From Acidimicrobiales bacterium (GTDB lineage Bacteria; Actinomycetota; Acidimicrobiia; Acidimicrobiales; SHLQ01), in contig JAHDEJ010000013.1 of assembly GCA_020628865.1 (NCBI GenBank), positions 1-64,000 on the forward strand: 64,000 nt of DNA, given 5' to 3'. A program made the position numbers and the translations under genes. The first letter of the stretch is position 1, and every line of letters starts with the position of its first letter. Positions 7,298-22,050 of this stretch are shown here, piece by piece. The notes below the pieces were generated by a model that saw only the letters and a program-made list of their open reading frames with translations, ran no database searches and had not been told where the DNA came from.

Positions 7298-7714
7298 GAC
7301 TTCGAAGCACCACCGAATGGTCTGGACGTCATCGCGATCCTCGACCGGCCAATAGGTGGCGGTCACACAGTTCGACTGTGCCGGAAAGAACTCGAGTACC
7401 TTTCCGTCGGCCGGACGGTAGGTGTAGAGCCCCAACGACTGCTGAGCGGAATCGATCTGGTCGGTGGGAACCGGAATGATCTCGCCGCCGGCCTCCAGCG
7501 TCAGCGTCGCCTCGTACCCCGCAGCAAGGTCGATACCGACCATGTCGCGGCGAAGGATCTCGGATTCGCGGGCCGGGATCAACGCGTCGATCGCCGGATT
7601 CGCCGTCACGGTGATGTCCTCGTTGTCGCCTCCGCCCGAAAGGCCGGCGAGTACGAGCAGGCCGATGCCGACGCCGAGCAGACCCGACAGGATCAGACGC
7701 TGTTTCTTGTGCAT
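7292..7714 (-). CDS. Small membrane-anchored extracytoplasmic protein
   Basis: 140 residues. A basic start (MHKKQR) and one hydrophobic helix (residues 8-25) are followed by a soluble domain with two Cys (SNCVTATYW and RWCFEVT) that could pair outside the cell. It has the layout of a single-pass exported protein, but no family is recognised. It lies convergent to ligA and divergent from the PASTA kinase. Confidence 0.5.
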
Positions 7715-7913
7715 GGCCCAATCGTACGTTCGGGCCGGCCGTGTACCCCGTCCGAGCAGCCACGATTTGTTGTGCTCTTACGAACTGTTCAGATGTCGAC
7801 GAGGTGCGGGTCGTCTGCGGTCTCCGAGCGGTCGTCGTACGGTGGTGCCGGCGACGCCTGAATTCTTGCGGGGGTGGCGCTGCCATCGCAGCCCCAGCGC
7901 GTACGGTGAAAAG

Positions 7914-10088
7914 ATGACCAGCGGTTCCACCACTCCGTCAGCGGCCGCCGTGCCGTTTGCGGCGCGCCCGGGGCGGGTACTCGCAGGTCGGTACAAGCTG
8001 GTCCGGCCGATCGGCCGTGGCGCGTCGGCGTGGGTCTGGCTGGCCGAGGACCCGAATCTGAACCGTCCGGTGGCGATCAAGATGCTCCACGACGGGCTCG
8101 TGGCAGACACCACATTTCTCGACCGTTTCCGTGCCGAGGCGCAAGCGGCCGCTGCGTTGAGCCATCCGAACGTGCTCGCCGTCCACGATTGGGGAGAGCA
8201 GGAGATCCCGTTTCTGGTCACGGAACATCTGGGTGGCGGCTCCCTGCGATCGATGCTCGACGCCGGTTCGACCCTTTCGCCGTCGCAGGCGATCGCCGTT
8301 GGCCTCGAAGCCTGCCGAGGGCTGCACTTTGCCCATCGTCAACGGTTCGTACATCGAGACATCAAGCCGGCCAACCTGCTCTTCGGCGGAGACGCTCGCT
8401 TGCGTATCGCCGATTTCGGGCTCGCCCGGGCGATCGCGGAGTCCGGTTGGACCGAGCCGAACTCGAATCTGGTCGGAACGGTTCGCTACGCCTCGCCCGA
8501 ACAAGCGCAGGGCAAGCGACTGACCGGAAAGTCTGACGTCTACTCGCTCGGGCTCACGCTCATCGAGGCAATCACCGGCGAACCGGTCTTCACCGGCGAC
8601 ACCGCGGTCGGAGTGTTGATGGCCCGTGTCGAACAGGACGTGCAGATCCCGGACCTTCCACCGCGCCTCGCCGATGCGTTGAAAGCGATGACGATTCGCG
8701 ACCCGGAGGATCGGCCGGATTCGGCCAAGGCCGGCGTTGCGCTGTTGACAGCGGCCGAAGGACTACCGCGTCCCACGGCGCTCGTGTTGGCTCCACCGGC
8801 GGTCCGACTCGAACCGCAGCCCGACCCGGACCCCGACGCAGCTGCGGCCGCCACGCCCGTCCCTCCAGCAACGGAGGTGCCGGCGGTCGAGGACGTCGAT
8901 GCGTCGGTCGATGCCCAGATGGACGTCGTCGAGACATCGAGCCCATTGGACGACGAAGCGCCGGAACCGGCCGCCGCCCCACCAGTTGCGGCGGCCCCGA
9001 CGGTTCCCGCAACGCCCCGGCCCGTATCGGAGCCGACCCCGGCCGAAAAGGTGGCCGCTGCGCGGACAGCGCTCGACGAGACCCGGCAGACCCCCAAAGA
9101 CAATTTGGACACGACGCAGTTGGCGGGAGCGGATGACGTCGACGCCACCGAGGTGTCCGGACCCTCGATCGCCGGAGCGGCAGACGAGGACGATGGCCCG
9201 ACCCGCCGTTGGCCATGGCTGCTTCTCACCACGGTGGCCATCGCTGCGGCCGCCTGGTTTGCGTACAACCAGTTCGAGGCGTCCCTGCCGGCCGAGCTCG
9301 CCGTGCCCGACGTCGTCGGGATGGACCGCGAGAGCGCACTCGCGGAACTCGGCGACACCTGGCTCGTGTCGGAGAAGCTCGACCGTGTGGCCGATGTTCC
9401 CCAGGGGGCGATCATTCGGACAGATCCTGCTGCCGGCGAACTCCTTGCGGAAGGCGAGACGCTCGACTACTGGGTCTCGCTCGGCCTCCCGCTCGTCCGT
9501 GTGCCGTCGGCCGACATCGTCGGCCGGAGCGAGCAACAGGCCGCAGCGACGCTTGATGCCATCGGCCTCTCGATGGGCGAGATCACGCGCATCAACGACG
9601 AGGCGATCGGCGAAGGGCTGGTCATCTCGGTCGAGGCAGCGGCTCCGGAACTCCCGCAGGGCGATCCCGTCGACCTCACCGTGTCGCTCGGCCCGGTGAC
9701 CCGGGTCGTCCCGACACCACAGGCCGGATTGGACATCTCCCTCTATCTCGAGACACTCACCGAGCAGGGGCTAGGCAACACCCTCGGCGAAGTGTTCGAC
9801 GAAGAGATTCCGGCGGGACAAGTCATCTCGATCACTCCACCGCCCGGGACCAACATCGAGCGAGGCGAGATCGTCGAAATTCTCCTGTCGCTCGGTCCGG
9901 AGCCCGTGGCCGTGCCCGACATCAGCGGCGAACTGATCGGGCCGGCGATCGAACGGCTCGAGCTCGCCGGGTTCGTGCCCATCGGCGAAGGCAACTTCCG
10001 TTGCCCGGCCGTCGGCACCGATCCGCCGGAAGGCTCGCTCGTGCAGCCAGGCGAGCCCATCACGGTCATTCTCACCGAGTGCGAGTGA
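7914..10088 (+). CDS. Membrane Ser/Thr protein kinase with four PASTA repeats (PknB-type)
   Basis: 724 residues from the ATG at 7914. The kinase domain covers roughly residues 25-290: a Gly-rich loop in GRGASAWVWLAED, ATP-binding K56 in VAIK, catalytic D149 in HRDIKPAN and D167 in DFGLAR. An Ala/Pro-rich juxtamembrane linker follows, then one transmembrane helix near 433-454 (PWLLLTTVAIAAAAWFAYN) and four PASTA units from about 463 to the end. PASTA modules of PknB bind muropeptides and couple cell-wall state to growth. No FtsZ/PBP gene cluster surrounds it, unlike the mycobacterial pknB locus. Confidence 0.95.
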   Translation: MTSGSTTPSAAAVPFAARPGRVLAGRYKLVRPIGRGASAWVWLAEDPNLNRPVAIKMLHDGLVADTTFLDRFRAEAQAAAALSHPNVLAVHDWGEQEIPFLVTEHLGGGSLRSMLDAGSTLSPSQAIAVGLEACRGLHFAHRQRFVHRDIKPANLLFGGDARLRIADFGLARAIAESGWTEPNSNLVGTVRYASPEQAQGKRLTGKSDVYSLGLTLIEAITGEPVFTGDTAVGVLMARVEQDVQIPDLPPRLADALKAMTIRDPEDRPDSAKAGVALLTAAEGLPRPTALVLAPPAVRLEPQPDPDPDAAAAATPVPPATEVPAVEDVDASVDAQMDVVETSSPLDDEAPEPAAAPPVAAAPTVPATPRPVSEPTPAEKVAAARTALDETRQTPKDNLDTTQLAGADDVDATEVSGPSIAGAADEDDGPTRRWPWLLLTTVAIAAAAWFAYNQFEASLPAELAVPDVVGMDRESALAELGDTWLVSEKLDRVADVPQGAIIRTDPAAGELLAEGETLDYWVSLGLPLVRVPSADIVGRSEQQAAATLDAIGLSMGEITRINDEAIGEGLVISVEAAAPELPQGDPVDLTVSLGPVTRVVPTPQAGLDISLYLETLTEQGLGNTLGEVFDEEIPAGQVISITPPPGTNIERGEIVEILLSLGPEPVAVPDISGELIGPAIERLELAGFVPIGEGNFRCPAVGTDPPEGSLVQPGEPITVILTECE

Positions 10089-10104
10089 ACCTAGACTCGG
10101 CGCC

Positions 10105-10527
10105 GTGACCGATCAGCACGCGTTCCTCTCGCCCGGATGGATCGAGGCCGCCCGCGGCATTCGAGCAGACGTCGAGGGTCGGGTGCCGCCGCCCGACGTG
10201 CCTCTGAAGGCCAACGTCATCGTCACGGATACGCCGTTCGAAGAAGACGAGATCCGGGGCTTCATCGACAGCTCCGACGGTTCGATCATGCTCGAACTGG
10301 GCGAACTCGACGACGCGGAGCTCACGGTCAAGACCGACTACGAGACGGCGCAGGCGCTTTTCGTGTCGCAGGACATCCAGAAGATGATGGAGTCGTTCAT
10401 GACCGGCAAGATCCTGGTCACCGGGGACGTGGCCAAGATCCTCATGCTCACCCCGCCGACGGACCCCGAACAGATCGAGCTCGCGCAGGAGATTGCGCAG
10501 CGCCTCGACGAGATCACGGCCGACTGA
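10105..10527 (+). CDS. SCP2 sterol-carrier-like domain protein
   Basis: 140 residues from a GTG 16 bp after the kinase stop. ELTVKTDYETAQALFVSQD, followed by MMESFMTGKILVTGDVAKIL, matches the hydrophobic-pocket pattern of SCP2-like lipid-binding domains (gain-of-binding helix plus GKI/VxGD loop). It presumably binds a lipid or acyl ligand. It may be co-transcribed with the kinase; a functional link is not shown. Confidence 0.7.
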   Translation: MTDQHAFLSPGWIEAARGIRADVEGRVPPPDVPLKANVIVTDTPFEEDEIRGFIDSSDGSIMLELGELDDAELTVKTDYETAQALFVSQDIQKMMESFMTGKILVTGDVAKILMLTPPTDPEQIELAQEIAQRLDEITAD

Positions 10528-10588
10528 AGTAACAGACCCGTGACACCCGCTGCGCATGGGAGCGGGCCGCCCTAGCTAGCCTGCGGGG

Positions 10589-10903
10589 ATGACAGAATCC
10601 GCTGATGATCAGGTGCTGTCGCGAGACGATGTCGCCCACGTGGCCCGTCTCGCCATGCTCGAGTTGACCGACCAGGAGATCGATCTCTTCACGGTGCAGC
10701 TTGGCGACGTGCTGGAGACCGCCAATGCGATGAATGCGCTCGATCTCGGCGACATCGAGCCGTTCCATCATCCGCTTGGTCTGACCAACGTCACCCGGCC
10801 CGACGAGGTACGTCCCTCGCTCGACCGCGAGGAAGTGCTCAGCCAGGCGCCAGCGGTCGAAGACGACCGGTTCCGTGTTCCTCCGGCACTGGGGGAGGAG
10901 TGA
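10589..10903 (+). CDS. gatC: Glutamyl-/aspartyl-tRNA amidotransferase subunit C
   Basis: 104 residues, normal length. LSRDDVAHVARLAMLELTDQ and the C-terminal LRPDEVRPS-like segment (TRPDEVRPSLDREEVLSQAP) are GatC hallmarks. GatC stabilises GatA and GatB in the amidotransferase that converts Glu-tRNAGln and Asp-tRNAAsn to the amide forms. It is first in gatC-gatA-gatB, with its stop overlapping the gatA start. Confidence 0.95.
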   Translation: MTESADDQVLSRDDVAHVARLAMLELTDQEIDLFTVQLGDVLETANAMNALDLGDIEPFHHPLGLTNVTRPDEVRPSLDREEVLSQAPAVEDDRFRVPPALGEE

Positions 10904-12363
10904 TGACCCACGCACAGCCGGCGGCATTCGGCACCGCCCATTCCATCGCCGCCGCCGTCCGTTCCGGTGAGCGCACGGCGGCTTCGGTCGTCGACGAGCA
11001 CCTTGCACGAATCGATGCGGCCGAAGGCGAGGTCAACGCCTACAACCACGTGATGGCCGCCGAAGCCCGAGCCGCCGCGGCCGATCTCGATGTTCGAATC
11101 GCCGCAGGGGAAGACGTCGGCCCGCTCGCCGGCGTGCCCGTCACGCTCAAGGACAACATGTGCACGCGGGGCGTGCCCACGACCTGTTCGTCGAAGATTC
11201 TCGAAGGTTGGCATCCGCCGTACTCGGCCACCGTCGTCGACCGGCTCGCCGCCGCCGGCGCCATCGCCGTCGGCAAGGCGAACCTGGACGAGTTCGCCAT
11301 GGGGTCGTCCACCGAGAACTCGGCCTTCGGCCCCACGCGCAACCCACACAACCTCGGCACGGTGCCCGGTGGTTCCAGCGGGGGCAGCGCAGCGGCCGTG
11401 GCGGCCGGTTTCAGCCCGCTGTCCCTCGGCTCGGACACCGGTGGCTCCATCCGTCAGCCCGCCTCGTTCTGCGGGCTCGTCGGCGTGAAGCCCACCTACG
11501 GAGCGGTGTCTCGCTACGGGCTCATCGCCTTCGGCAGCAGCCTCGACCAGATCGGTCCGTTCGCCACCGACGTCGCCGATGCCGCGCTGAGCTACGAGGT
11601 GATCGCCGGTCACGACGAGCGGGATTCCACATCGGTCGCACAGCCGGCACTTGCCGTCTCGTCGAAGCTCGACGCCGGTGTCGAGGGTCTGCGCGTCGGC
11701 ATCATCAGCGAGATGGTCGGCGGTTCGATCGAGGGCCTCGCTCCCGATGTGCTCGCTCGTACGACGGCCGCCGCCGATGCGCTCGTGGCTGCGGGCGCAA
11801 CGGTTGACGAGTGCTCCATCCCCACCTCGATTCACGGCATCGCCGCGTACTACATGGTTGCCCCGGCCGAGGCGTCGTCGAACCTCGCCCGGTTCGATGG
11901 CGTTCGCTACGGCCTGCGTGAAGACGGCAACAACACGGCAGCGATGAACACGGCCAGTCGCACCGCAGGCTTCGGCGACGAGGTCAAGCGCCGGATCATG
12001 CTCGGCACCTACGCACTGTCCGCCGGATACCGGGACGCCTACTACGGCAAGGCCCAGCAGGTCCGGGCGAAGATGGCCGAAGAGTTCGCATCGGTGTACG
12101 AACGGTTCGACGTGCTCCTGACCCCCACGGCGCCGAGCACCGCGTTCGCGTTCGGGGCGAAGGCCGATCCGATGGCCATGTACCTGAACGATGTCTACAC
12201 GATCCCGTCGAACCTGGTCGGCCATCCGGCCATCTCCGTTCCGTTCGGCGCTGGCGACGACGGCATGCCGATCGGCGTGCAGGTGCTGGCCCCATTGATG
12301 GGCGAGGTCGTGATGTTCCAGGTCGCTGCCGAACTCGAACGAGCCGCTGGAGGTGCAGCATGA
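10903..12363 (+). CDS. gatA: Glutamyl-/aspartyl-tRNA amidotransferase subunit A
   Basis: 486 residues from the ATG at 10903, which overlaps the gatC stop as TGATG behind a strong GGGGGAGGAG ribosome-binding site. A GTG at 10900 is the alternative start. The amidase-signature triad is complete: K83, cis-Ser S158 in GGSSGGSA and nucleophile S182 in SDTGGSIRQPA. It hydrolyses glutamine to give ammonia to GatB. An ATGA overlap joins it to gatB. Confidence 0.97.
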   Translation: MTHAQPAAFGTAHSIAAAVRSGERTAASVVDEHLARIDAAEGEVNAYNHVMAAEARAAAADLDVRIAAGEDVGPLAGVPVTLKDNMCTRGVPTTCSSKILEGWHPPYSATVVDRLAAAGAIAVGKANLDEFAMGSSTENSAFGPTRNPHNLGTVPGGSSGGSAAAVAAGFSPLSLGSDTGGSIRQPASFCGLVGVKPTYGAVSRYGLIAFGSSLDQIGPFATDVADAALSYEVIAGHDERDSTSVAQPALAVSSKLDAGVEGLRVGIISEMVGGSIEGLAPDVLARTTAAADALVAAGATVDECSIPTSIHGIAAYYMVAPAEASSNLARFDGVRYGLREDGNNTAAMNTASRTAGFGDEVKRRIMLGTYALSAGYRDAYYGKAQQVRAKMAEEFASVYERFDVLLTPTAPSTAFAFGAKADPMAMYLNDVYTIPSNLVGHPAISVPFGAGDDGMPIGVQVLAPLMGEVVMFQVAAELERAAGGAA

Positions 12364-13865
12364 GCGACGCAAGCACAGGAGTGAGCGCAAGCGGGATGGC
12401 GCCGGTCGTGATGATCGACCGTGGTCCCGACATCCACGAACCGTCGATCCCTGACGACTGGGAACTCGTCTGCGGCCTCGAGGTCCATGTCGAGCTCTCC
12501 ACGGCGACGAAGCTGTTCTGCGGCTGTGCCAACGCGTTCGGCGCCGAGCCGAACACCAACGTGTGCCCCACGTGTCTCGGCCTGCCCGGCTCGCTGCCGG
12601 TCATCAACGAGAAGGCCGTGACCGACGCGATGCGCCTCGGTCGAGCCCTCAACTGCACGGTGCAGCCGGCGGTCATGGCCAGGAAGAACTACTTCTACCC
12701 GGACATGCCAAAGGACTTCCAGACCAGCCAATACGACAAGCCGACCAACGAGAACGGCTGGCTCGATCTGCCCGACGGCACCCGCATCAACGTCGAACGC
12801 GCCCACATCGAGGAAGACACGGGCAAGTCCACGCATGTGGGCGGCGACGGCCGGATCAGCTCGGCCGAGTATTCGCTGATCGACTACAACCGTGCCGGCG
12901 TGCCCCTGCTCGAGATCGTGAGCCGACCCGACATCCGCACGGCCGAGGAAGCGAAGGCCTACGTGTCCGAGCTGCGCGGGATCGTGCTCGCGTTGGGCGT
13001 CTCCGACGCCCGGATGGAGGAGGGCTCGATGCGGGTCGACGCCAACATCTCCGTCCGACCGCGTGGAACCGACGAGCTGCGGCTGCGATGCGAGGTGAAG
13101 AACATCAACTCGATCAGTTCGCTGGGCCGTGCCATCCAGCACGAAGCGAACCGTCACATCGACCTGTACCTCACAGGGGACCGGCCGATTCAGGAGACTC
13201 GGCACTGGGACGAGGAAGCCGGACGCACCCGGTCGGGGCGTTCGAAGGAAGACGCCGAGGACTACCGGTATTTCCCGGAACCCGATCTCGTTCCGCTCGA
13301 GCCGTCGGCCGAGGAACTGCAGGCGATCGACGAATCGATGCCGCAGCTTCCGGCCGCAATCCGCAGCGAGCTCATGACGGCCGCCGAGATCGGCGTCGAG
13401 GACGCCGGCCTGCTCGTCGACCGAGGGGACGCCGTGTTCGCCCTCGAGGCGATCGGCGCCGGAGCGGACGGCAGTCGTGTGGCCGTGCACCTCATCAACA
13501 ACCTCGCCGACGGGGTGGGCGCACTCACGCCCGCATCGTTCGCTGAACTTGTGGCGATGGAAACGGGTGGCGACCTGTCGTCGACCCAGACCAAGGAGGT
13601 GCTCGCCGAAATGGCCGGCACCGGCGGGTCCGCGAAGGACATCGCTGCCGCAAAGGGCTTCGAGGCGATGGACACGGGCGAGCTGGACGGGCTCATCGAC
13701 GGGCTGATCGCAGACCATGCCGACGAGTGGTCTCGTTTCTGTGGTGACGACGAGGGCGACGCCAAGAAGATGGCCGGGTTCTTCACCGGCCAGATCATGA
13801 AAGCCACCCGTGGGCAGGCCGACGGCAAGGTCGTCGCCCAGCTGCTGAACGCTCGGAAGGGCTGA
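12360..13865 (+). CDS. gatB: Glutamyl-/aspartyl-tRNA amidotransferase subunit B
   Basis: 501 residues. After a non-conserved N-terminal extension of about 35 residues comes WELVCGLEVHVELSTATKLF, then zinc ligands in FCGCANAFG and VCPTC, the kinase-like amidotransferase core (YNRAGVPLLEIVSRPD; MRVDANISVRP) and the C-terminal YqeY-like tRNA-binding domain. It phosphorylates the misacylated tRNA and transfers ammonia from GatA. It is coupled to gatA by ATGA. Confidence 0.97.
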   Translation: MSDASTGVSASGMAPVVMIDRGPDIHEPSIPDDWELVCGLEVHVELSTATKLFCGCANAFGAEPNTNVCPTCLGLPGSLPVINEKAVTDAMRLGRALNCTVQPAVMARKNYFYPDMPKDFQTSQYDKPTNENGWLDLPDGTRINVERAHIEEDTGKSTHVGGDGRISSAEYSLIDYNRAGVPLLEIVSRPDIRTAEEAKAYVSELRGIVLALGVSDARMEEGSMRVDANISVRPRGTDELRLRCEVKNINSISSLGRAIQHEANRHIDLYLTGDRPIQETRHWDEEAGRTRSGRSKEDAEDYRYFPEPDLVPLEPSAEELQAIDESMPQLPAAIRSELMTAAEIGVEDAGLLVDRGDAVFALEAIGAGADGSRVAVHLINNLADGVGALTPASFAELVAMETGGDLSSTQTKEVLAEMAGTGGSAKDIAAAKGFEAMDTGELDGLIDGLIADHADEWSRFCGDDEGDAKKMAGFFTGQIMKATRGQADGKVVAQLLNARKG

Positions 13866-13871
13866 ACCCGT

Positions 13872-14564
13872 ATGGACAATGCGGCGTTGCTCGCTGCCTA
13901 TGGAGAGGTTCGCAGCCGCTGCATGGAGATCGGACGGTCATTGACCGCCGAACAGGCGGCAACCGTGGCGCCGTGCTGCCCGGCGTGGACCGTCAAGGAT
14001 CTGTTCGCCCACATGGTCGGCGTGGCCGTGGACATGATCGAGGGCAACCTCGAAGGTGTGGCCACCGAGCCATGGGCGGATGCGCAGGTGGCCCGTCGGG
14101 TCGACGACGATCTGCCGACGATTCTCGAAGAGTGGGAGGGGACCGTCGAACAGATCGACGCGTTCCTGTCCAAGCTGGCCGATCGGATCCCGCCACCGTT
14201 CTTCATCGATGCGTGGACCCACGAGTGGGATGTCCGTCAGGCGCTCGGCCTCGCTGCGGTTCCGGATCTGGTCCTGCCGCGCTACGTGCGGGACGCGATC
14301 GTCGAGCGGAACCAACAGTTGGCGGTCGAGCACGGGCTGGCACCGACCCGGCTGGTGATCGAAGACGGCGATCACAGCACCGACGCCGTTCTGGGCGTGG
14401 GTGAGCCCGAGGCGGTCGTGGCGATGACCATCTTCGAGTACATGCGTTTGACCATGGGACGCCGCAGCCAAGAGCAGATTTCGGCGATCGCACCCGGGGC
14501 CGCCACCGACGTGCTGGTGATCTGGTCCCCGGCGGTACGGGACATCGTCGACCCCGTCCTCTGA
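13872..14564 (+). CDS. Maleylpyruvate-isomerase-like (DinB-fold, mycothiol-type) protein
   Basis: 230 residues. CPAWTVKDLFAHMVGVAVDM and DAWTHEWDVRQALGL carry the spaced His residues of the metal-binding DinB/maleylpyruvate isomerase N-terminal domain common in actinobacteria. A C-terminal domain of about 80 residues (TRLVIEDGD...) fits the two-domain form. Characterised members are mycothiol-dependent thiol transferases or isomerases. It begins 6 bp after gatB and is probably co-transcribed with it. The substrate is unknown. Confidence 0.8.
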   Translation: MDNAALLAAYGEVRSRCMEIGRSLTAEQAATVAPCCPAWTVKDLFAHMVGVAVDMIEGNLEGVATEPWADAQVARRVDDDLPTILEEWEGTVEQIDAFLSKLADRIPPPFFIDAWTHEWDVRQALGLAAVPDLVLPRYVRDAIVERNQQLAVEHGLAPTRLVIEDGDHSTDAVLGVGEPEAVVAMTIFEYMRLTMGRRSQEQISAIAPGAATDVLVIWSPAVRDIVDPVL

Positions 14565-14573
14565 GACGGCGCG

Positions 14574-14596
14574 ATTTTTCGGCGCGTCCGAAAAAT
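14574..14596. repeat. Inverted repeat downstream of the gat operon
   Basis: ATTTTTCGG and CCGAAAAAT flank a 5-nt loop, 9 bp after the end of the DinB-like gene. The stem is AT-rich at its base, so it may be a weak terminator or a protein site. Confidence 0.45.
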
Positions 14597-14707
14597 TCTC
14601 TGATGGCTGCAAGAAACTGGCGGTCGTTGACGTATTGGTGAGTGATGAGTCGATCCGACCCAGGCAAAGCTGCCTGGCGGTTCCAAGTTCGAGGAGGGAC
14701 GTCAACC

Positions 14708-14821
14708 ATGGCTGAAACCTGGCGCCACGTCGTGCGTAGAACACTTGCTGCGATCTCCGTGCTGGAACCGCCGTCGGAACCCCTGCGTCCAACGGACAAA
14801 GGCGGGCACAAAGACACCTGA
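14708..14821 (+). CDS. Candidate small protein of 37 residues
   Basis: The ATG at 14708 is preceded at normal distance by GAGGAGGG, one of the strongest ribosome-binding sites in the region. The product starts MAETWRHVVRRTLAAISVLE, a basic amphipathic N-terminal half, and ends in a polar tail (TDKGGHKDT). An in-frame ATG at 14645 would give 58 residues but has a poorer site. The ORF stops 20 bp before the large nested hairpin, as a one-gene transcript would. No homologue is recognised. Confidence 0.4.
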   Translation: MAETWRHVVRRTLAAISVLEPPSEPLRPTDKGGHKDT

Positions 14822-14840
14822 CCTACAGCGGCGAGTGGGA

Positions 14841-14884
14841 GCACCCCCGGGTTGAAGTCTGACTTCGCCATGGCCCGGGGGTGC
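14841..14884. terminator. Nested inverted repeat (two-stem hairpin)
   Basis: Outer arms GCACCCCCGGG (14841-14851) and CCCGGGGGTGC (14874-14884) are perfect 11-bp complements. The loop itself contains GAAGTC/GACTTC (14854-14866). The structure would be very stable. It could terminate the small ORF transcript or be a leader of the sigma gene, which starts 133 bp downstream. Confidence 0.5.
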
Positions 14885-15016
14885 ACGCCGCTGGCACTGA
14901 AGTTGGGCTGGGGGGTGGGCCCCGGCCCGGCACAGTGGTCACACGGCCCATTTTCTATGCAGCACGTCTCGTGGCATCCTCGATACGGTGCGGTGGCGAG
15001 TGGGAGACGAAGTTTG

Positions 15017-16147
15017 ATGACGAGCACGCTTGTCGACGACAGCTTTCACCAAACGTTCTCCCAAGCGCAGAGCGGTCATCCGGCGGCGTTGCAGGCTGTG
15101 GTCGGCGAGTTCATCCCGCCGGTCGAGTACTTCCTTCGCCGGCGAGGCGTGTCGGATCCCGAGAGCACCGCAAACAGCGTGGTCGAACGGGCCCTCCGTT
15201 CTGGCGACGCCGATCGTATGGTCCACGCTGCGGCGTTTCGGAGCTATGTCTTTGCGATCGCCCGCAACGAGGTGGTGAATCAGCATCGCTACCGCGGACG
15301 ACGTGTGACACTCGATCTGGTGGACGATCCGGCGGAAGTCGGAAGCTTGGCAACCGCTCCCGGAGCCGAGACCCTGGTGCTCTCCTCGATGGCAGTCGAC
15401 GAACTGCTGTCCCATGTCAGCCATGAACAGGCTGAAGTCATCGAACTCCGAGTCTTGGAAGGCCAGACGCTTGAAGCGACGGCGAAAATCCTCGGCAAGT
15501 CCGTTCCGGCAGTGACCTCGCTGCAGTACCGCGGGCTCGCTCGGCTGCGTCAGGCGGTGTCCGTCGTTGTCGCGCTCGTCGTGGTGCTTCTGGTGTCACG
15601 ACTGCTGGATCGTGACACCGTCGATGCGCCGGTCATCAGCGATGACACCGGCGTCGTGGATGTGCCGATGGTGGATCCGGATCGCATGGAGGGGTCGAGG
15701 TTCGATGTCGAGTCGGTTGAGGCGCAGCAAGCGCGGGCGATCGGCGCAGGCACAACTGACGCGCCGATATTCGCTGTCCACACCGAACCGTTGGCGCTGA
15801 TGCCTGAACCGGCAGACCAGGCTGGGGAACCAAAGCCAGTCGGCGCCACAGCTGCGGCGGTGGGGCCAGCCAGCGCCAGCACTTCCACCCGCGACGACGT
15901 CGTCGCAACATCGGATGAAACTCAGCCGATTACGTACGAGGTTCGCTGGGCCGCGGAGCCCGCGGTAGAGGCGGCAAACAATTCGGGCGCTGATGCGGAA
16001 ACGGGTGAGGCGGTTTCGACGAATCAGGCCAAGGGCAACGCACGCGGAATCGAGAAGAGCGCTGGCTGCGACAAGGCCAACGGCCGAAGCGGCAAGACCC
16101 CAGCGACGTGTGCGGCGAGCCTCGCCGACCTCCACGCCTCTCGTTAG
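15017..16147 (+). CDS. ECF-type sigma factor fused to a transmembrane anchor and extracytoplasmic tail
   Basis: 376 residues from the ATG at 15017. Residues 20-95 look like sigma region 2 (FRSYVFAIARNEVVNQHRYR). Residues 125-178 look like region 4 with its helix-turn-helix (EGQTLEATAKILGKSVPAVT, then LQYRGLARLRQ). A 19-residue hydrophobic helix (VSVVVALVVVLLVSRLL) follows directly, and about 175 Ala/Glu-rich residues come after it with two Cys near the C-terminus. ECF factors are normally about 200 residues and soluble, with a separate membrane anti-sigma; no anti-sigma gene is adjacent here. Upstream in-frame ATGs would place the start inside the nested hairpin. Confidence 0.75.
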   Translation: MTSTLVDDSFHQTFSQAQSGHPAALQAVVGEFIPPVEYFLRRRGVSDPESTANSVVERALRSGDADRMVHAAAFRSYVFAIARNEVVNQHRYRGRRVTLDLVDDPAEVGSLATAPGAETLVLSSMAVDELLSHVSHEQAEVIELRVLEGQTLEATAKILGKSVPAVTSLQYRGLARLRQAVSVVVALVVVLLVSRLLDRDTVDAPVISDDTGVVDVPMVDPDRMEGSRFDVESVEAQQARAIGAGTTDAPIFAVHTEPLALMPEPADQAGEPKPVGATAAAVGPASASTSTRDDVVATSDETQPITYEVRWAAEPAVEAANNSGADAETGEAVSTNQAKGNARGIEKSAGCDKANGRSGKTPATCAASLADLHASR

Positions 16148-16162
16148 CAGTCACACGCCAAT

Positions 16163-16201
16163 GGTGCCTGGCACCTTCAGCATCCAAAGGGGCCTGGCAC
16201 C
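16163..16201. repeat. 26-bp-spaced dyad repeat, locus 1 (two units)
   Basis: GGTGCCTGGCACC at 16163 and GGGGCCTGGCACC (one change) at 16189 are exactly 26 bp apart, starting 16 bp after the sigma-factor stop. The flanks ATGGTGCC and GGCACCAT also pair, so the pair can fold into one hairpin. It belongs to the same family as the arrays at 26652 and 55839. Confidence 0.8.
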
Positions 16202-16308
16202 ATTCCCTGTGGGTGAGCGGGTGGTCACGGTGGGTCGTGTGTCGGACGTGTCGCGAATGTGTCATTTCGATTAACACCTCCCGAAACGACCGGCCTAGCG
16301 TCTTCGCC

Positions 16309-16500
16309 ATGAGCGAACTTGAAGTCGAAGTGACCCTCGCCAGTGCGAGCGAACGCCGCCGCCTCTGGATCACCGCCATCCCCGGAATTCGTCCAGGCCG
16401 ACGCCTGCGGATTGATCACCCAACGGAACCGCACCGTTGGTGGAGGGTCATCGAAGTGGGGCAGATGCGCCTGCGCGACCTGCCGATGAGCCCGGCATGA
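16309..16500 (+). CDS. Small basic protein of 63 residues
   Basis: The ATG at 16309 opens a 63-residue frame: an acidic beta-like start (MSELEVEVTLAS), an Arg-rich centre (RRRLWITAIPGIRPGRRLRI) and a Trp-containing end (HRWWRVIEVGQMRLRDLP). The pattern suggests a small beta-barrel-like domain. It overlaps the next micro-ORF as ATGA. No family is recognised; its reality is supported by the coupling and by normal codon usage. Confidence 0.5.
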   Translation: MSELEVEVTLASASERRRLWITAIPGIRPGRRLRIDHPTEPHRWWRVIEVGQMRLRDLPMSPA

Positions 16501-16571
16501 CGATCATGCGACTCGTGCTGGCGTTCGGTCGCCGTCGCCAGCGGATCCACGCCGTTCTGAACGGCCGCTGA
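16497..16571 (+). CDS. Micro-ORF of 24 residues coupled to the preceding gene
   Basis: Starts inside the stop of the 63-residue gene (ATGA) and encodes a very basic peptide, MTIMRLVLAFGRRRQRIHAV and four more residues. It would be translated by re-initiation. Possible meanings are a tiny membrane- or RNA-interacting peptide, or chance. The convergent MATE gene ends 17 bp away. Confidence 0.35.
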   Translation: MTIMRLVLAFGRRRQRIHAVLNGR

Positions 16572-16587
16572 CCGACCGGGTGTCGGA

Positions 16588-17925
16588 CTAGCCCGCGCCG
16601 AGCACGAGCCAGCGATCGGACCGGAAGCGCCAGATCAGGCCGAGCCCCCGCACGACCATCAGGACCCAGATCGCCCCCCAGAGCCAGCCCAGTCCGAGGC
16701 CCATCGCCGGGACGAGCAGGGCCAGGGGTACGAAAATCACTGCGGCGCTGGCCATGGCCCACGCCAGGAACGTCATGTCGCCGGCGCCGATGAGCACACC
16801 ATCGAGCGCAAAGACGAGGCCGTTGAGCGGTTGCATGAGGGCGAGGTGGATGAGGGCGATCGTCGCCAGCGAGACCACGGCGGCATCGTTCGTGAACACG
16901 TGGGGGAGGAACGGCGCTCCCAGCCCGAAGATCGCCATCGCCACGACGCCGACGACCACGCCCCAATAGAGACACCGCGCGCCGGCTGCGCGGGCGCCAT
17001 CCTCGTCGCCGGAGCCGAGGAATCGACCCATCATCGACTGGCCGGCAATCGCCACGGCGTCGAGCGCCAGCGCCGTGAAGATGAACAGCTGGAAGGCGAT
17101 CTCGTGGGCAGCGAGGGCTTCGGTGCTGATCCGGCTCGCCGCCGCCACCGAGACCGTGAACGACCCGCGCAGCGCAACGGTTCGGACGAAGAGGGTTCCG
17201 CCCACTCGGAGCAGGCGCACGATCTCGGCGAGGTCGGGCGACAGCTGTGTGCCTCTCGCGATCACGTCTCGGCCGATCCACAGGAGGTAGGCGCCGGCGC
17301 CGAGCCACTGCGCCACCACGGTGGCGAACGCCGACGCGCCGATCTCCATGTCGAAGCCGACGATCAGAATGAGTTCCAACACGAGGTTGAAGATTGCTGT
17401 GCCGACAGCAACCCAGAAGGGGCGGGCCGTGTCCTGCAGGCCCCGGAGGTAGCCGACCCCGCTGAGCGTGAGCAGCATGGCCGGCAGGCCCCAGAGGCTG
17501 ATTGTGAAGTAGATGCGGGCCTGCTCCAGCACGGCCTCGGCGTTGCCGTCGTCCGTCTCGCCGAGCAGCCGAAGCAGCGGTTCGGCGAAGATCCAGAGGG
17601 CGAGCCCCAGCAGGATGCCCATCGCTCCGGCCAGCCACAGCCCCTGGACGGCCTGATGGGCGGCGCGGCCGTGCTCGTTTGCGCCCATGAGACGGGAGAC
17701 GGCCGCCGTCGTTCCGTACGCGAGGAAGATCATGATGGCGTGAGCGGTCAGCAGCGTCTGGCCGGCCACGGCGAGGCCGGCGAGCTCGTTGGTGCCGAGC
17801 AGATTGCCGACAACGGCCGTGTCGGCGAGGACGTAGAGCGGCTCGGCGATCAGCGCGCCGAGCGCCGGGATTCCCAGTCGGGCAATCTCCCGATCCAGAA
17901 GCTTGGTTGCCTCGCTCCTCGCCAC
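16588..17925 (-). CDS. MATE-family efflux transporter (DinF-like)
   Basis: 445 residues with about 12 transmembrane helices in two related halves. GIPALGALIAEPLYVLADTA at the N-terminus and LRGLQDTARPFWVAVGTAIF in the middle are characteristic of the DinF branch of the MATE superfamily, which exports cationic or toxic compounds with H+ or Na+. It is monocistronic and divergent from the acyl-CoA operon. The substrate is unknown. Confidence 0.92.
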   Translation of the reverse strand: MARSEATKLLDREIARLGIPALGALIAEPLYVLADTAVVGNLLGTNELAGLAVAGQTLLTAHAIMIFLAYGTTAAVSRLMGANEHGRAAHQAVQGLWLAGAMGILLGLALWIFAEPLLRLLGETDDGNAEAVLEQARIYFTISLWGLPAMLLTLSGVGYLRGLQDTARPFWVAVGTAIFNLVLELILIVGFDMEIGASAFATVVAQWLGAGAYLLWIGRDVIARGTQLSPDLAEIVRLLRVGGTLFVRTVALRGSFTVSVAAASRISTEALAAHEIAFQLFIFTALALDAVAIAGQSMMGRFLGSGDEDGARAAGARCLYWGVVVGVVAMAIFGLGAPFLPHVFTNDAAVVSLATIALIHLALMQPLNGLVFALDGVLIGAGDMTFLAWAMASAAVIFVPLALLVPAMGLGLGWLWGAIWVLMVVRGLGLIWRFRSDRWLVLGAG

Positions 17926-17987
17926 CGCCGCAGCCTACGAGGGCGCCTCGGGGATGCTGCAGGCGAAGTCCCGGCCGTATGGGAGCG

Positions 17988-18009
17988 AATAGTCGGATGT
18001 CCGAGTATT
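17988..18009. promoter_or_regulatory. Probable operator for the MarR regulator, site 1
   Basis: Half-sites AATAGTCGGA and TCCGAGTATT flank a TG centre; they are complementary at 9 of 10 positions. The site lies 52 bp upstream of the SDR gene. A near-identical site lies at 19772-19793, upstream of the MarR gene itself, so both are probably bound by that regulator. Confidence 0.65.
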
Positions 18010-18060
18010 CTGCCGATCACATGGATTCACCCGGAGCACGGCTCCGCAGGAGGTACAGCA

Positions 18061-18843
18061 ATGTTGGACGTTGACGGCGCATCCGCAGTCGTGACCGGTG
18101 GCGCTTCGGGCCTTGGATACGGCTGTGCCGCCAAGCTCGCCGCCAATGGTGCAAAGGTGCTCATCGCCGACCTCGACGAGGAGAAGGGCAACGCAGCTGC
18201 CTCCGAGTTCGGTGGCATGTTTGTCAAGGCCGACGTCGCCGACGAGGAGCAGATGGCTGCTGCGATGCTCGCGGCCAGCGAGATGGGTCCGCTACGTGCC
18301 TGCGTGAACGCGGCCGGCATCGGCCACGCCATGCGTACGGTCAACCGCTCGGGTGAGCCGTTCGACCTCGCCCAGTTCGAGTTCGTCGTCCGCGTCAACC
18401 TCATCGGCACGTTCAACTGCACGCGCCTCGCTGCAGCCGAGATGTCGAAGACCGAGCCGCTCGCCGACGGCGAGCGCGGCTCCATCGTGAACTTCGCCTC
18501 GGTGGCGGCGTTCGACGGCCAGATCGGTCAGGCCGCCTACTCGGCCACCAAGGCCGGCATCGTCGGTATGACCCTCCCGATCGCCCGCGACCTCAGCAGC
18601 ATCGGCGTGCGCGTCAACACCGTCGCTCCCGGCCTCTTCGACACCCCCATCTACGACAAGATGGCTGCCGGTGGCCGTGACCCGCAGGAGTTCAAGGACA
18701 CGCTCGGCGCAAGCGTCCTGTTCCCGAAGCGCCTCGGCTTCTCCGACGAGCTCGGCAGCATGGTCTACGAACTTGTGACCAACAGCTACATGAACGGCGA
18801 GACGATCCGCGTCGATGCGGGCGTCCGCCTTCCGCCGAAGTAG
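18061..18843 (+). CDS. Short-chain dehydrogenase, 3-hydroxyacyl-CoA dehydrogenase type II-like
   Basis: 260 residues. NAD-binding TGGASGLG at residues 12-19, catalytic S147 (NFASVAAF), Y160 and K164 (YSATK), and the LFDTPIYDKM/FPKRLG C-terminus closely resemble HSD10-type enzymes. Those oxidise 3-hydroxy-2-methylbutyryl-CoA and related 3-hydroxyacyl-CoAs. An AGGAGG site precedes the ATG. It forms an operon with the crotonase and fits branched acyl-CoA breakdown. Confidence 0.88.
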   Translation: MLDVDGASAVVTGGASGLGYGCAAKLAANGAKVLIADLDEEKGNAAASEFGGMFVKADVADEEQMAAAMLAASEMGPLRACVNAAGIGHAMRTVNRSGEPFDLAQFEFVVRVNLIGTFNCTRLAAAEMSKTEPLADGERGSIVNFASVAAFDGQIGQAAYSATKAGIVGMTLPIARDLSSIGVRVNTVAPGLFDTPIYDKMAAGGRDPQEFKDTLGASVLFPKRLGFSDELGSMVYELVTNSYMNGETIRVDAGVRLPPK

Positions 18844-18893
18844 TCCCGGAACCTTCCAAACCGCTCAACCACATCGATCCCAGGGGGAACACC

Positions 18894-19661
18894 ATGGCAG
18901 ATGAAGTACTCACCGAGGTCCGGGGACGCGTGATGGTCATCACGTTGAACCGGCCCGATGCAATGAACGCCGTCAACCAGGACCTCGCCCAGCAGTTGGC
19001 GGCGGCGATGGACGAGATGGACGCGAATCCGGAGATCTCGTGCGGCGTGCTCACCGGCAACGGTCGCGGCTTCTGCGCCGGCATGGACCTCAAGGCGTTC
19101 GCGCAGGGCAGCTTCCCGACCGTCGAAGGCCGTGGGTTCGGTGGCATCACCGAGCAGCCGCCGAAGAAGCCGGTCATCGCTGCGGTCGAAGGGTTCGCCC
19201 TCGCCGGTGGTCTCGAGCTTGCGCTCACGTGTGATCTCATCGTGTCGGCCGAGGGCGCCAAGTTCGGTATCCCCGAGGCGGGCGTTGGCCTGTTTGCCGG
19301 TGCCGGCGGCCTGATGCGTCTGCCTCGTGTTGTCCCGTACGCGGTGGCGATGCGGATGGCACTCACGGCCAAGCCGATTCGCGCTGAAGAGGCGCTGGAC
19401 TACGGCATGATCGCCGAGGTCACGCCGAAGGGTGAGGCACTTGCCAAGGCGATCGAGCTGGCGGAAGAGATTGCGGCCAACGCGCCGCTTGCGCTGATCG
19501 CGTCGAAGGCGCTCGTGCGGGAGAGCAACGGCCGCACCGAGGACGAGTTCTGGACCTACCAGGCTGAGAACTACTTCAAGATGGTCTTCCAGAGCGAAGA
19601 CGCCATCGAGGGCGCCACGGCATTCGCCGAGAAGCGCCCGCCCAACTGGCAGTCCAAGTAA
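18894..19661 (+). CDS. Enoyl-CoA hydratase/isomerase (crotonase family)
   Basis: 255 residues, typical length. The oxyanion-hole segments NGRGFCAGMDLKAF and EGFALAGGLELALTCDLIVS are visible, followed by KFGIPEAGVGLFAGAGGLMR. Crotonases of this type hydrate 2-enoyl-CoA. It lies 50 bp after the SDR gene in the same orientation, so hydratase and dehydrogenase would act in sequence. Substrate chain length is not certain. Confidence 0.88.
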   Translation: MADEVLTEVRGRVMVITLNRPDAMNAVNQDLAQQLAAAMDEMDANPEISCGVLTGNGRGFCAGMDLKAFAQGSFPTVEGRGFGGITEQPPKKPVIAAVEGFALAGGLELALTCDLIVSAEGAKFGIPEAGVGLFAGAGGLMRLPRVVPYAVAMRMALTAKPIRAEEALDYGMIAEVTPKGEALAKAIELAEEIAANAPLALIASKALVRESNGRTEDEFWTYQAENYFKMVFQSEDAIEGATAFAEKRPPNWQSK

Positions 19662-19665
19662 CCAT

Positions 19666-19681
19666 CACCCTCCGCGCGCAC
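19666..19681. repeat. Short dispersed repeat, copy 1
   Basis: CACCCTCCGCGCGCAC, followed two bases later by CACCACA, is repeated at 60607-60622 with the same CACCACA spacing. It overlaps by two bases the long palindrome at 19680-19718. Confidence 0.5.
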
Positions 19682-19718
19682 GCCACCACATCGGTACCAG
19701 GTACCGATGTGGTGGCGT
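19680..19718. terminator. Near-perfect 18-bp palindrome after the crotonase gene
   Basis: ACGCCACCACATCGGTAC and its exact complement surround a 3-nt CAG. There is no T-tract, as is common for actinobacterial terminators. It would end the SDR-crotonase transcript before the MarR gene. Confidence 0.65.
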
Positions 19719-19771
19719 CGTCACATTCTGTGGCCATGGGTCTTCAGCCGCCGGCGTTTGTGTTCAAGAGA

Positions 19772-19793
19772 ATTAGTAGGATGTCCGACTATT
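19772..19793. promoter_or_regulatory. Probable operator for the MarR regulator, site 2
   Basis: ATTAGTAGGA and TCCGACTATT flank a TG centre, 36 bp before the marR start. The right half-site is the exact complement of the AATAGTCGGA half-site found at 17988. Autoregulation together with control of the upstream operon is the simplest reading. Confidence 0.65.
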
Positions 19794-19828
19794 TGGTGTC
19801 CTGCTAAACTGCTGGATGAAGGGGGCAC

Positions 19829-20371
19829 ATGGCCAAGGAGCAGACATCCGAACTCGATCTGATCGGCGAAACCCGTCGGAATTGGGGCGAGCGCGGGATT
19901 CGTGAGCCGGAGGCCATGGCCGCGGCGACGTCGCTCGCCCGGGCGCAGCAGGTCGTGCTCGGCCGCATCAATCAGGCGCTCGGCGAGTACTCGCTGACGT
20001 TCTCCCGCTACGAGGCGCTCGCGCTGCTCAGCTTCGCTCGCAACGAGTCCATGGGCATGGCTCGGATGGGGGAGCGCCTGCAGGTGCATCCCACCAGCGT
20101 CACGTCCACCATCGACCGGCTCGAGCGGGACGGTCTGGTCATCCGCAGCCCCCACCCCGACGACCGGCGGGCCACCCTCGCCACGCTCACCGACAACGGC
20201 CGTGAGGTGCTCACTGCGGCAACAGCGGCCCTCGAGGACATTCGCTGGGGGATGGGGGAGATCGCCGACGGCGACCTTTCCAACCTCACCGTCAACCTCG
20301 CCCACGTTCGCGCCTCTGCCGGCGATAACACCGACGACTCTCTTCCCATATTCACGAAAGGCACCTCATGA
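19829..20371 (+). CDS. MarR-family transcriptional regulator
   Basis: 180 residues. The winged helix-turn-helix is clear: MARMGERLQVHPTSVTSTID as the recognition region and LVIRSPHPDDRRATLATLTD as the wing, flanked by dimerisation helices. MarR proteins usually repress and are released by a ligand, plausibly an acyl-CoA here. It overlaps the mutase start by ATGA, so it is the first gene of the mutase operon. Paired operators at 17988 and 19772 suggest that it controls both halves of the regulon. Confidence 0.9.
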   Translation: MAKEQTSELDLIGETRRNWGERGIREPEAMAAATSLARAQQVVLGRINQALGEYSLTFSRYEALALLSFARNESMGMARMGERLQVHPTSVTSTIDRLERDGLVIRSPHPDDRRATLATLTDNGREVLTAATAALEDIRWGMGEIADGDLSNLTVNLAHVRASAGDNTDDSLPIFTKGTS

Positions 20372-22050
20372 GCGACGCTCCCACAGGCAACGAAGCTGAC
20401 GCAGCCGCCGAGGAGGCCTGGCGCAGCTCGCCCGAATACGCCGCATGGCGCGAGCGGTACGACGCCGCAACCCTTCGCGACAAGCCGTACGAGACGATGT
20501 CCGGCGTGCCGGTCGAGCCGATCTATGGCCCAGGCCCGTACCCGGGGGAGTATCCGTACACCCGCGGGGTCTATCCGAGCATGTATCGGAGCCGTCTGTG
20601 GACGATGCGGATGTTCGCCGGCTTCGGCACGGCCGAGGACACCAACGCCCGCTTCAAGGACATCCTCCGCAACGGCGGCACCGGCCTGTCCACCGCCTTC
20701 GACATGCCAACCCTCATGGGCCGGGACTCCGACAGCCCCTGGGCCCTCGGTGAGGTCGGCCGAGCCGGCGTTGCGGTCGACACGCTCGCCGACATGGAAG
20801 ACCTCTTCGCCGACATCGACCTCTCGGGCGTGTCCACCTCGATGACCATCAATGGCCCTGCTGCCGTGGTGCTCGCCATGTACATCGCCGTCGCCGAGAA
20901 GACGGGCGTGCCACAAGCCAAGCTCGCCGGCACCATTCAGAACGACATCTTCAAGGAGTATCAGGCGCAGAAGGAGTACATCTATCCTCCTCGCCCGAGC
21001 GTTCGCATCGTCACCGACATGATCCAGTACACGGCGGCCGAGATGCCCCGCTGGCACCCGGTTTCGATCTCCGGCTACCACATTCGCGAAGCCGGCAGCA
21101 CCGCTGCCCAGGAGCTGGCGTTCACGCTCGCCAACGGCTTCGCCTACGTCGAAGCCGCAGTAGCCGCCGGTGTCGACGTGGACGAGTTCGCCGGCCGTCT
21201 GAGCTTCTTCTTCAACAGCCACAGCGACTTCTTCGAGGAGATCGGCAAGTTCCGTGCGGCCCGTCGCATCTGGGCCCGCTGGATGAAGGAGCGCTACGGG
21301 GCCACGAAGGAGCGGTCCATGTTGTGCCGCTTCCACACCCAGACCGCCGGCGTGTCGTTGACGGCGCAGCAGCCCGAGATCAACATCGCTCGCGTCGCCA
21401 TTCAGGCGCTTGCCGGTGCGCTCGGCGGAACGCAGTCGCTGCACACCGACAGCTTCGACGAGGCCCTGGCGCTGCCCACGGAGAAGGCGGCCCGCATCGC
21501 GTTGCGGACGCAGCAGATCGTTGCGCACGAGACGGGCGCCGCCGATGTGATCGACCCGCTCGGGGGATCCGACTACGTCGAGTGGATGACCGACGAGATG
21601 GAACGTCAGGCCGAGGCGATCTTCGCGCACCTCGATGACCTCGGTCAGGGATCGATCCTTGAAGGCGTCTACGCCGGAATCGAGAACGGCTACTTCGTCG
21701 GCGAGATCGCCGACAGCGCCTACCGATTCGAGCGCGAAGTCAACAATGGGAATCGGATCATCGTCGGTGTCAACGCCTTCACCGACGGGGACGACAGCGA
21801 CCAGAGCATCCTGCGCATCGATGCCTCGGTCGAGGAATACCAGCGAAAGCGCCTTGCCGACGTCAAGCTCGGCCGTGACGACGCCGCGGTGCAGGCAGCT
21901 CTGGCTGCGGTCACCGCAACTGCCGCCGACCCGACCGCAAATCTCATGCCGCCGATCATTGATGCGGTGAAGGCCTACGCCACGCTCGAAGAAGTGTCCA
22001 TGGCCATGGAGAAGGAATTCGGCACCTACGTCGAGAAAGCGATCATCTGA
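20368..22050 (+). CDS. icmA: Adenosylcobalamin-dependent acyl-CoA mutase large subunit, isobutyryl-CoA mutase type
   Basis: 560 residues, the TIM-barrel substrate domain of the methylmalonyl-CoA mutase family without the B12 domain. The residues that select substrate are F83 (RMFAG), A110 (STAFDMP) and Q201 (AQKEYIYPP). In methylmalonyl-CoA mutase the first and last equivalents are Tyr and Arg (Y89/R207); isobutyryl-CoA mutase has Phe and Gln. 2-hydroxyisobutyryl-CoA mutase has Ile, with Asp at the A110 position. The sequence therefore predicts interconversion of isobutyryl-CoA and n-butyryl-CoA or a close analogue. It is followed at once by the B12 subunit and MeaB. The subunit call is sure; the substrate is inferred. 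Confidence 0.8.
   Translation: MSDAPTGNEADAAAEEAWRSSPEYAAWRERYDAATLRDKPYETMSGVPVEPIYGPGPYPGEYPYTRGVYPSMYRSRLWTMRMFAGFGTAEDTNARFKDILRNGGTGLSTAFDMPTLMGRDSDSPWALGEVGRAGVAVDTLADMEDLFADIDLSGVSTSMTINGPAAVVLAMYIAVAEKTGVPQAKLAGTIQNDIFKEYQAQKEYIYPPRPSVRIVTDMIQYTAAEMPRWHPVSISGYHIREAGSTAAQELAFTLANGFAYVEAAVAAGVDVDEFAGRLSFFFNSHSDFFEEIGKFRAARRIWARWMKERYGATKERSMLCRFHTQTAGVSLTAQQPEINIARVAIQALAGALGGTQSLHTDSFDEALALPTEKAARIALRTQQIVAHETGAADVIDPLGGSDYVEWMTDEMERQAEAIFAHLDDLGQGSILEGVYAGIENGYFVGEIADSAYRFEREVNNGNRIIVGVNAFTDGDDSDQSILRIDASVEEYQRKRLADVKLGRDDAAVQAALAAVTATAADPTANLMPPIIDAVKAYATLEEVSMAMEKEFGTYVEKAII

Follow-up and report, generated by a model that had tools for sequence, protein, structure and literature searches.

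A gene in the 64,000-nucleotide stretch of Acidimicrobiales DNA analysed here (the window) encodes an ECF-type sigma unit that runs, within one reading frame, into a membrane helix and a tail predicted to be exported, and this architecture is present and inherited in two families of the order. We propose that the protein combines a surface receptor and a sigma-type regulator in one piece and that the regulator would be freed by proteolysis, a reading to which we give an even chance of being right.

The gene occupies positions 15017-16147 of the forward strand, a single stop-free frame whose translation comprises 376 amino acids followed by a stop codon. The start ATG at 15017 is preceded by GGGAG at 15002-15006, and alignment with a paralogue in the same genome (L031) is consistent with this start. 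Sigma region 2 (residues 1-97; 15017-15307, +) was delimited from a structural model, structure matches and residue comparison, and is divergent in region 2.2 (DPESTANSVVERA). Sigma region 4, containing the -35-recognition helix-turn-helix (residues 117-178; 15365-15550, +), matched structure 3vfz and scored above the Pfam cut-off for both PF08281 (31.6 bits) and PF04545 (30.6 bits). Pfam Sigma70_r2 matched the protein weakly (12.5 bits vs a cut-off of 24), and the NCBIfam ECF superfamily model TIGR02937 reached 40.9 bits, below its cut-off of 42.9; since both cut-offs were missed, we file the protein as an ECF-type homologue without calling it a proven ECF sigma factor. The sigma unit is followed by a transmembrane helix (residues 180-198; 15554-15610, +) with a mean Kyte-Doolittle hydropathy of 2.45 and flanks of net charge +3 on the inside and -3 on the outside, by a juxtamembrane motif, PVISDD (residues 205-210; 15629-15646, +), and by a predicted exported tail of 178 residues (15611-16144, +). 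Thus, the original prediction, in which a single frame encodes both sigma regions, a membrane helix and about 175 residues of tail, was borne out.

An AlphaFold2 model of the window protein, computed from a 76-row alignment, contained both sigma folds (mean pLDDT 86.9, pTM 0.49), with region 2 helices at residues 3-18, 22-42, 48-62 and 71-95. Structural matches of the model included sigmaE, SigW, SigD and CnrH: region 2 superposed at 2.8 Å, across 90 residues, on sigmaE region 2 in complex with its -10 strand (4lup), and region 4 on SigD sigma4 (3vfz) over 62 residues with an rmsd of 0.7 Å. Model, structures and Pfam together place the protein within the ECF fold, i.e. sigma2 and sigma4 without sigma3. 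The model further predicts one continuous helix from residue 163 to 201 (15503-15619, +), in which the recognition helix passes into the membrane helix.

The tail is rich in alanine, serine, threonine, proline and glycine (fraction 0.50). Pfam recognised no domain in it, and a comparison with its own genome returned no other match at E up to 1. It contains just two cysteines, at residues 351 and 365 (16067-16111, +), which could possibly form a disulphide loop. When the bases of the tail were shuffled, the frame remained stop-free in 49 of 5000 shuffles. Third-position G+C was 0.72 in the sigma part and equally in the tail, vs 0.83-0.89 in neighbouring genes, a value that would fit late arrival or low expression of the gene. 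Rfam gave no match on the window.

The best matches beyond the gene itself, among 59 related genomes, were the paralogue L031 and, in a congener, the L031 ortholog L032; the window gene itself lacks a close ortholog. L031 is about 47% identical to the window protein over residues 8-217, i.e. through the helix, and all three proteins align without gaps at the helix, with a common frame, the same helix position and an identical PVISDD motif. A frameshift or chimeric join, which would have undone the original prediction, is therefore ruled out. Three related exported propeller-like proteins adjoin the paralogue in both genomes (L031:9160-15724, L032:6710-13248), and at both loci one propeller-like gene is divergent from the fusion gene.

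We also compared the genomic slot of the window gene within its genus. The gatB gene was located in 7 of the 11 genomes, and five flanks were fetched from the six gatB-bearing congeners besides the window's own genome. Four congeners carried gatB and matE on one stretch, and their slot held neither the MDMPI gene nor a fusion; in the fifth, a short contig, gatB alone was visible. The window gene is thus an accessory gene. A separate sigma and anti-sigma pair at this place in relatives had been named as the other observation that would overturn the prediction; it is ruled out in the four slots, where the gene is simply absent. In two of the congeners (L113, L114) the gatB-matE slot spans about 1.4-1.5 kb with other content, which shows that the slot is variable. 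Around the window gene itself, Pfam identified no anti-sigma family in nine neighbouring ORFs (window 7464-22047) or in two flanking genes, in agreement with the earlier claim that none is adjacent, and no other sigma gene was found among the neighbours scanned. The ORF at 10105-10524 had no Pfam match whatever. A Ser/Thr protein kinase with three PASTA repeats (7464-10088, +) lies just upstream of gatCAB.

The same architecture, which the original prediction had proposed to look for in relatives, was found repeatedly. We searched 397 genomes of the order and then 39 genomes of family f18, and when all ORFs at the fetched loci were searched with a profile, 100 distinct sigma domains were recovered. 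In 31 of these, one of them a fragment, a hydrophobic helix of at least 1.85 followed within 45 residues of sigma4; the highest hydropathy among the remaining 69 was 0.98, many of these soluble rows having a tail too short for any helix and hence no hydropathy value. With the fragment set aside, 30 sufficiently complete, distinct fusions remained, distributed over 11 genomes from two families of the order: 8 of 12 genomes of g134 and 1 of 2 of g194 (both f18), and 2 of 11 of the window's genus, g1. They comprise 27 fusions from f18 and a trio formed by the window protein, L031 and L032. A scan of contigs gave one locus, the G008 contig of an uncultured Acidimicrobiales bacterium. Among the matches listed for 395 genomes of the class and 396 of the phylum, with about eight candidates scored per genome, no other was both helix-spanning and stop-free. 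Restriction of the fusions to g1 and g134/g194 is, for now, a provisional conclusion.

In all 30 fusions the end of sigma4 abuts the membrane helix, with a median distance of 0 residues (-7 to +2). The inside flank is more positive than the outside flank in 29 of the 30, the averages being +3.3 and -1.6, respectively. Together with the continuous helix of the model, this predicts that the cytoplasmic end of the membrane helix is formed by the -35 recognition helix.

The history of the fusion was analyzed in a tree of 90 rows, which left out 10 of the 100 sigma domains (the fragment and nine scoring below 80) and in which L080, at a contig end, was labelled soluble; in later comparisons it was counted as tethered. 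One branch separated the 30 tethered rows and three soluble rows of group D from 57 soluble relatives (support 92, not starred), and a topology that held the tethered rows together without the group D solubles was disfavoured (AU p 0.018). Branch and AU test together suggest that the fusion probably had a single origin and that the soluble gene beside the group D fusions later lost its tether. These soluble sigma genes lie directly upstream of the group D fusions, all on the minus strand (L078:6807-7367, L093:7664-8287, L098:7503-8003); in the tree their sigma domains are nested within the tethered clade, and among themselves they differ by dN 0.18-0.37 and dS 1.5-1.8.

We then asked how the sigma part has changed. 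Across 15 ortholog pairs, dN/dS where defined was 0.01-0.14 in sigma4, 0.03-0.23 in sigma2 and 0.12-0.39 in the tail, and the tail was the less constrained part in all 14 pairs for which values were defined; pairs of one group are not independent, and many dS values exceed 1. The L031-L032 pair gave a dN/dS of 0.12 for the tail and of 0.04 for both sigma2 and sigma4. These ratios indicate that the sigma part of the relatives is under strong constraint and not decaying. At the same time, the fusions of f18 keep fewer of the residue classes conserved in soluble relatives: 0.65 in regions 2.1-2.2, 0.63 in regions 2.3-2.4 and 0.82 in region 4, vs 0.91, 0.94 and 0.94 in the soluble rows. The acid at position 54, which we take to be the position of sigma70 E407, the core-binding acid of region 2.2, occurs in 47 of 57 soluble relatives, in 1 of 27 f18 fusions and in two of the window trio; the window protein has Ser54. 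A basic residue at position 95 is present in 54 of 57 soluble relatives, 1 of 27 f18 fusions and all three of the window trio. At position 77, 50 of 57 soluble relatives carry Trp and 28 of 30 fusions carry Tyr, a change that looks directed rather than random, although a single ancestral event could explain it. The losses in region 2 could mean weak binding of RNA polymerase or of the -10 element. The suggestion of a degenerate sigma factor therefore survived in part: region 2 has indeed lost conserved residues, with Ser54 in the window protein, yet no other portion of the protein is as constrained in the relatives as the sigma part.

What follows the helix varies, and in the relatives the outside domains are modular. 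Pfam analysis of 26 of the 30 fusions recognised a ricin-type lectin in nine, RTX repeats in five, pentapeptide repeats in one and DUF642 in one; in ten, including the window protein, it recognised no outside domain. A zf-HC2 or other anti-sigma domain was found in none of the 26 at Pfam E up to 0.01 (up to 1 for the window protein), nor did the window protein match, at E up to 1, any Pfam family of cell-surface-signalling anti-sigma domains. As a control, zf-HC2 was detected in L040, a protein of the same order with a sigma unit and a more distant helix. The window's genome also encodes an ECF52-like protein (L033:9343-11136, +) with a sigma unit, a Cys/His motif recognised by eye, a membrane helix and a Thr-rich tail; its zinc finger was not called by Pfam.

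The genes around the loci were predicted by a simple codon score. In 3 of about 10 fusion lineages, fusion and neighbouring exported protein have a domain kind in common. The tail of L101 matched a nearby trypsin-like protein at 50% identity over 146 aa (E 1e-36), with DUF642 in both, and L081 has, in part, the same two neighbouring genes. The lectin fusions of group E (L096, L102, L107) are followed in 3 of 3 cases by a homologous exported-protein gene; Pfam identified ricin lectin and CBM60 in the L102 neighbour, and those of L096 and L107 were assigned by similarity, that of L107 being partial at a contig end. In group B (L077, L095, L099) a homologous gene also comes directly after the fusion in 3 of 3, with a ricin lectin in L099, a long similar stretch in L095 and a short N-terminal piece in L077. 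By strict tblastn, 3 of 28 tails matched their own neighbourhood, and there was one cross-locus match outside the ortholog groups. The proposal that such a protein could be its own sensor thus gains plausibility from relatives that carry lectin, RTX or DUF642 domains outside, sometimes in common with a neighbouring exported protein.

In group C, an MIP channel gene begins within about 30 bases after each lectin fusion (3 of 3; L079:4427-5122, L094:2740-3441 and L100:4589-5284, all -). A well conserved block upstream of these fusions had no Rfam match. Upstream alignments, inspected by eye, contained no promoter element common to the five groups. Upstream of the group E fusions we observed a 12-base palindrome, ACCTGTACAGGT (L096:2207, L102:6087, L107:3004), with one base changed in L107; it has no further occurrence in the roughly 704 kb of loci and is a possible operator.

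According to the reading we prefer, an ECF-type sigma2-sigma4 unit would reside in the cytoplasm, fixed at the inner face of the membrane because the -35 recognition helix appears to continue directly as the membrane helix. The charge rule points to an N-in/C-out topology, and the exported C-terminal part would sense something outside. Pinned to the bilayer by sigma4, the tethered unit would be inactive until, in response to a signal, the protein is cut within or close to the membrane helix by proteolysis of site-1 and then site-2 type; once free, the unit would direct transcription, and in some relatives its target would probably be the gene for the neighbouring exported protein. Release is favoured because both sigma domains have been kept and because cleavage reportedly activates the fused ECF protein IutY. 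All 8 genomes checked encode site-2-type proteases, but so do all 14 controls; being universal, these proteases are permissive and uninformative with regard to cleavage. Counting against this reading are the divergence of region 2, a window-protein tail with neither a recognised sensor domain nor a similar protein in its genome, and the sharing of domains with a neighbour in only 3 of about 10 fusion lineages.

The protein might instead act in place in the manner of CadC or ToxR, with the sigma4 helix-turn-helix binding DNA unreleased and region 2 having lost its sigma function. We consider this rather unlikely, although several of the observations above speak for it. Through the rigid join of the two helices, recognition and membrane, any twist or shift would be transmitted directly to the DNA-binding surface, and the helix is continuous in the model, with the junction gap constant in every fusion; moreover, the f18 fusions have kept sigma4 better than either part of region 2, and 26 of 27 of them are missing the region 2.2 acid. 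If only sigma4 mattered, however, region 2 would need neither its fold, which is kept, nor the purifying selection seen in its dN/dS of 0.03-0.23 where defined, and the window trio still has the basic residue at 95 in all three members and the acid at 54 in two.

Group D raises another alternative, that the tethered unit serves as a decoy or anti-sigma-like partner regulating a separate soluble sigma factor. There, all three genomes have a soluble sigma gene directly before the fusion, with a sigma domain that the tree places inside the tethered clade (the AU test above), but among the fusions such a pair was seen in group D only, and the scanned neighbours of the window gene include no sigma gene; we regard this explanation as improbable. 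More improbable still, to our judgement very much so, is a decaying sigma gene whose frame continues by chance through a hydrophobic segment and a stop-free tail. Its weak Pfam match in region 2, its low third-position G+C relative to its neighbours and its absence from the same slot in four congeners are what a decaying gene might display; against this, architecture and motif are the same in a paralogue at about 47% identity, the L031-L032 comparison shows constraint in sigma2 and sigma4 exceeding that in the tail, and there are 30 fusions in 11 genomes. Release from the membrane by proteolysis remains our preferred explanation.

A more far-reaching version of this explanation is possible, and we put it forward tentatively: the fusions may be a receptor kind that has not been described, a transmembrane sigma factor free of any anti-sigma and silenced only by its -35-helix anchor, which diversified in Acidimicrobiales into a set of surface receptors whose exchangeable sensors (lectin, RTX and DUF642) turn on the exported proteins that match them. 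If true, it would be a bacterial counterpart of the membrane-tethered transcription factors of eukaryotes. If a bare membrane anchor can silence a sigma factor, sigma signal transduction requires fewer components than has been assumed. In addition, the family offers a natural series on whether the outside domain predicts the exported protein that is controlled, and the soluble offshoot of group D can be compared with its tethered sister. Our literature search, which covered ground other than the ECF reclassification and evolution surveys, found no description of a bare membrane-anchored sigma architecture; a published ECF group with the same design is possible.

Among known systems, CadC/ToxR-type activators have an N-terminal DNA-binding domain, one membrane helix and a C-terminal outside sensor. 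The fusions are like them in this layout and unlike them in the DNA binder, which is a winged helix in CadC/ToxR and a sigma2-sigma4 unit here. In SigI/RsgI of Clostridium thermocellum (PMC12203970), multiple paralogues carry carbohydrate-binding, hydrolase or peptidase-like domains as outside sensors, and a signal passing through a single membrane helix controls exported enzymes. The likeness to our fusions is one of logic: there, a separate soluble sigma factor is held by the anti-sigma RsgI, whereas here the sigma unit itself is membrane-bound. Closer in build are the fused ECF groups. ECF52 (SCO4117 of Streptomyces coelicolor) comprises a sigma unit, a zinc-finger anti-sigma, a membrane helix, a low-complexity exported region and a carbohydrate-binding domain (PMC5826349), ECF48 and ECF53 likewise contain anti-sigma parts (PMC8999054), and proteolytic release has been proposed for fused sigma factors of these types (PMC5826349, PMC8999054). 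Like them, the fusions unite in one polypeptide an ECF sigma domain, a C-terminal membrane helix and an extension that, by charge, is predicted to be exported. However, in the fused ECF proteins as described the anti-sigma domain, a zinc finger in ECF52, lies between sigma4 and the membrane, where the fusions have a median gap of 0 residues and none was found, and several paralogues per genome carry unlike outside domains here. IutY (ECF243) of Pseudomonas putida is also a single fused protein, for which regulated intramembrane proteolysis is reported as the activation step (PMC8999054); unlike the present family, it has a fused membrane anti-sigma factor and functions in iron cell-surface signalling. 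Thus, the Acidimicrobiales fusions differ from ECF52, ECF48/53 and IutY in having no anti-sigma part and in their fixed helix junction.
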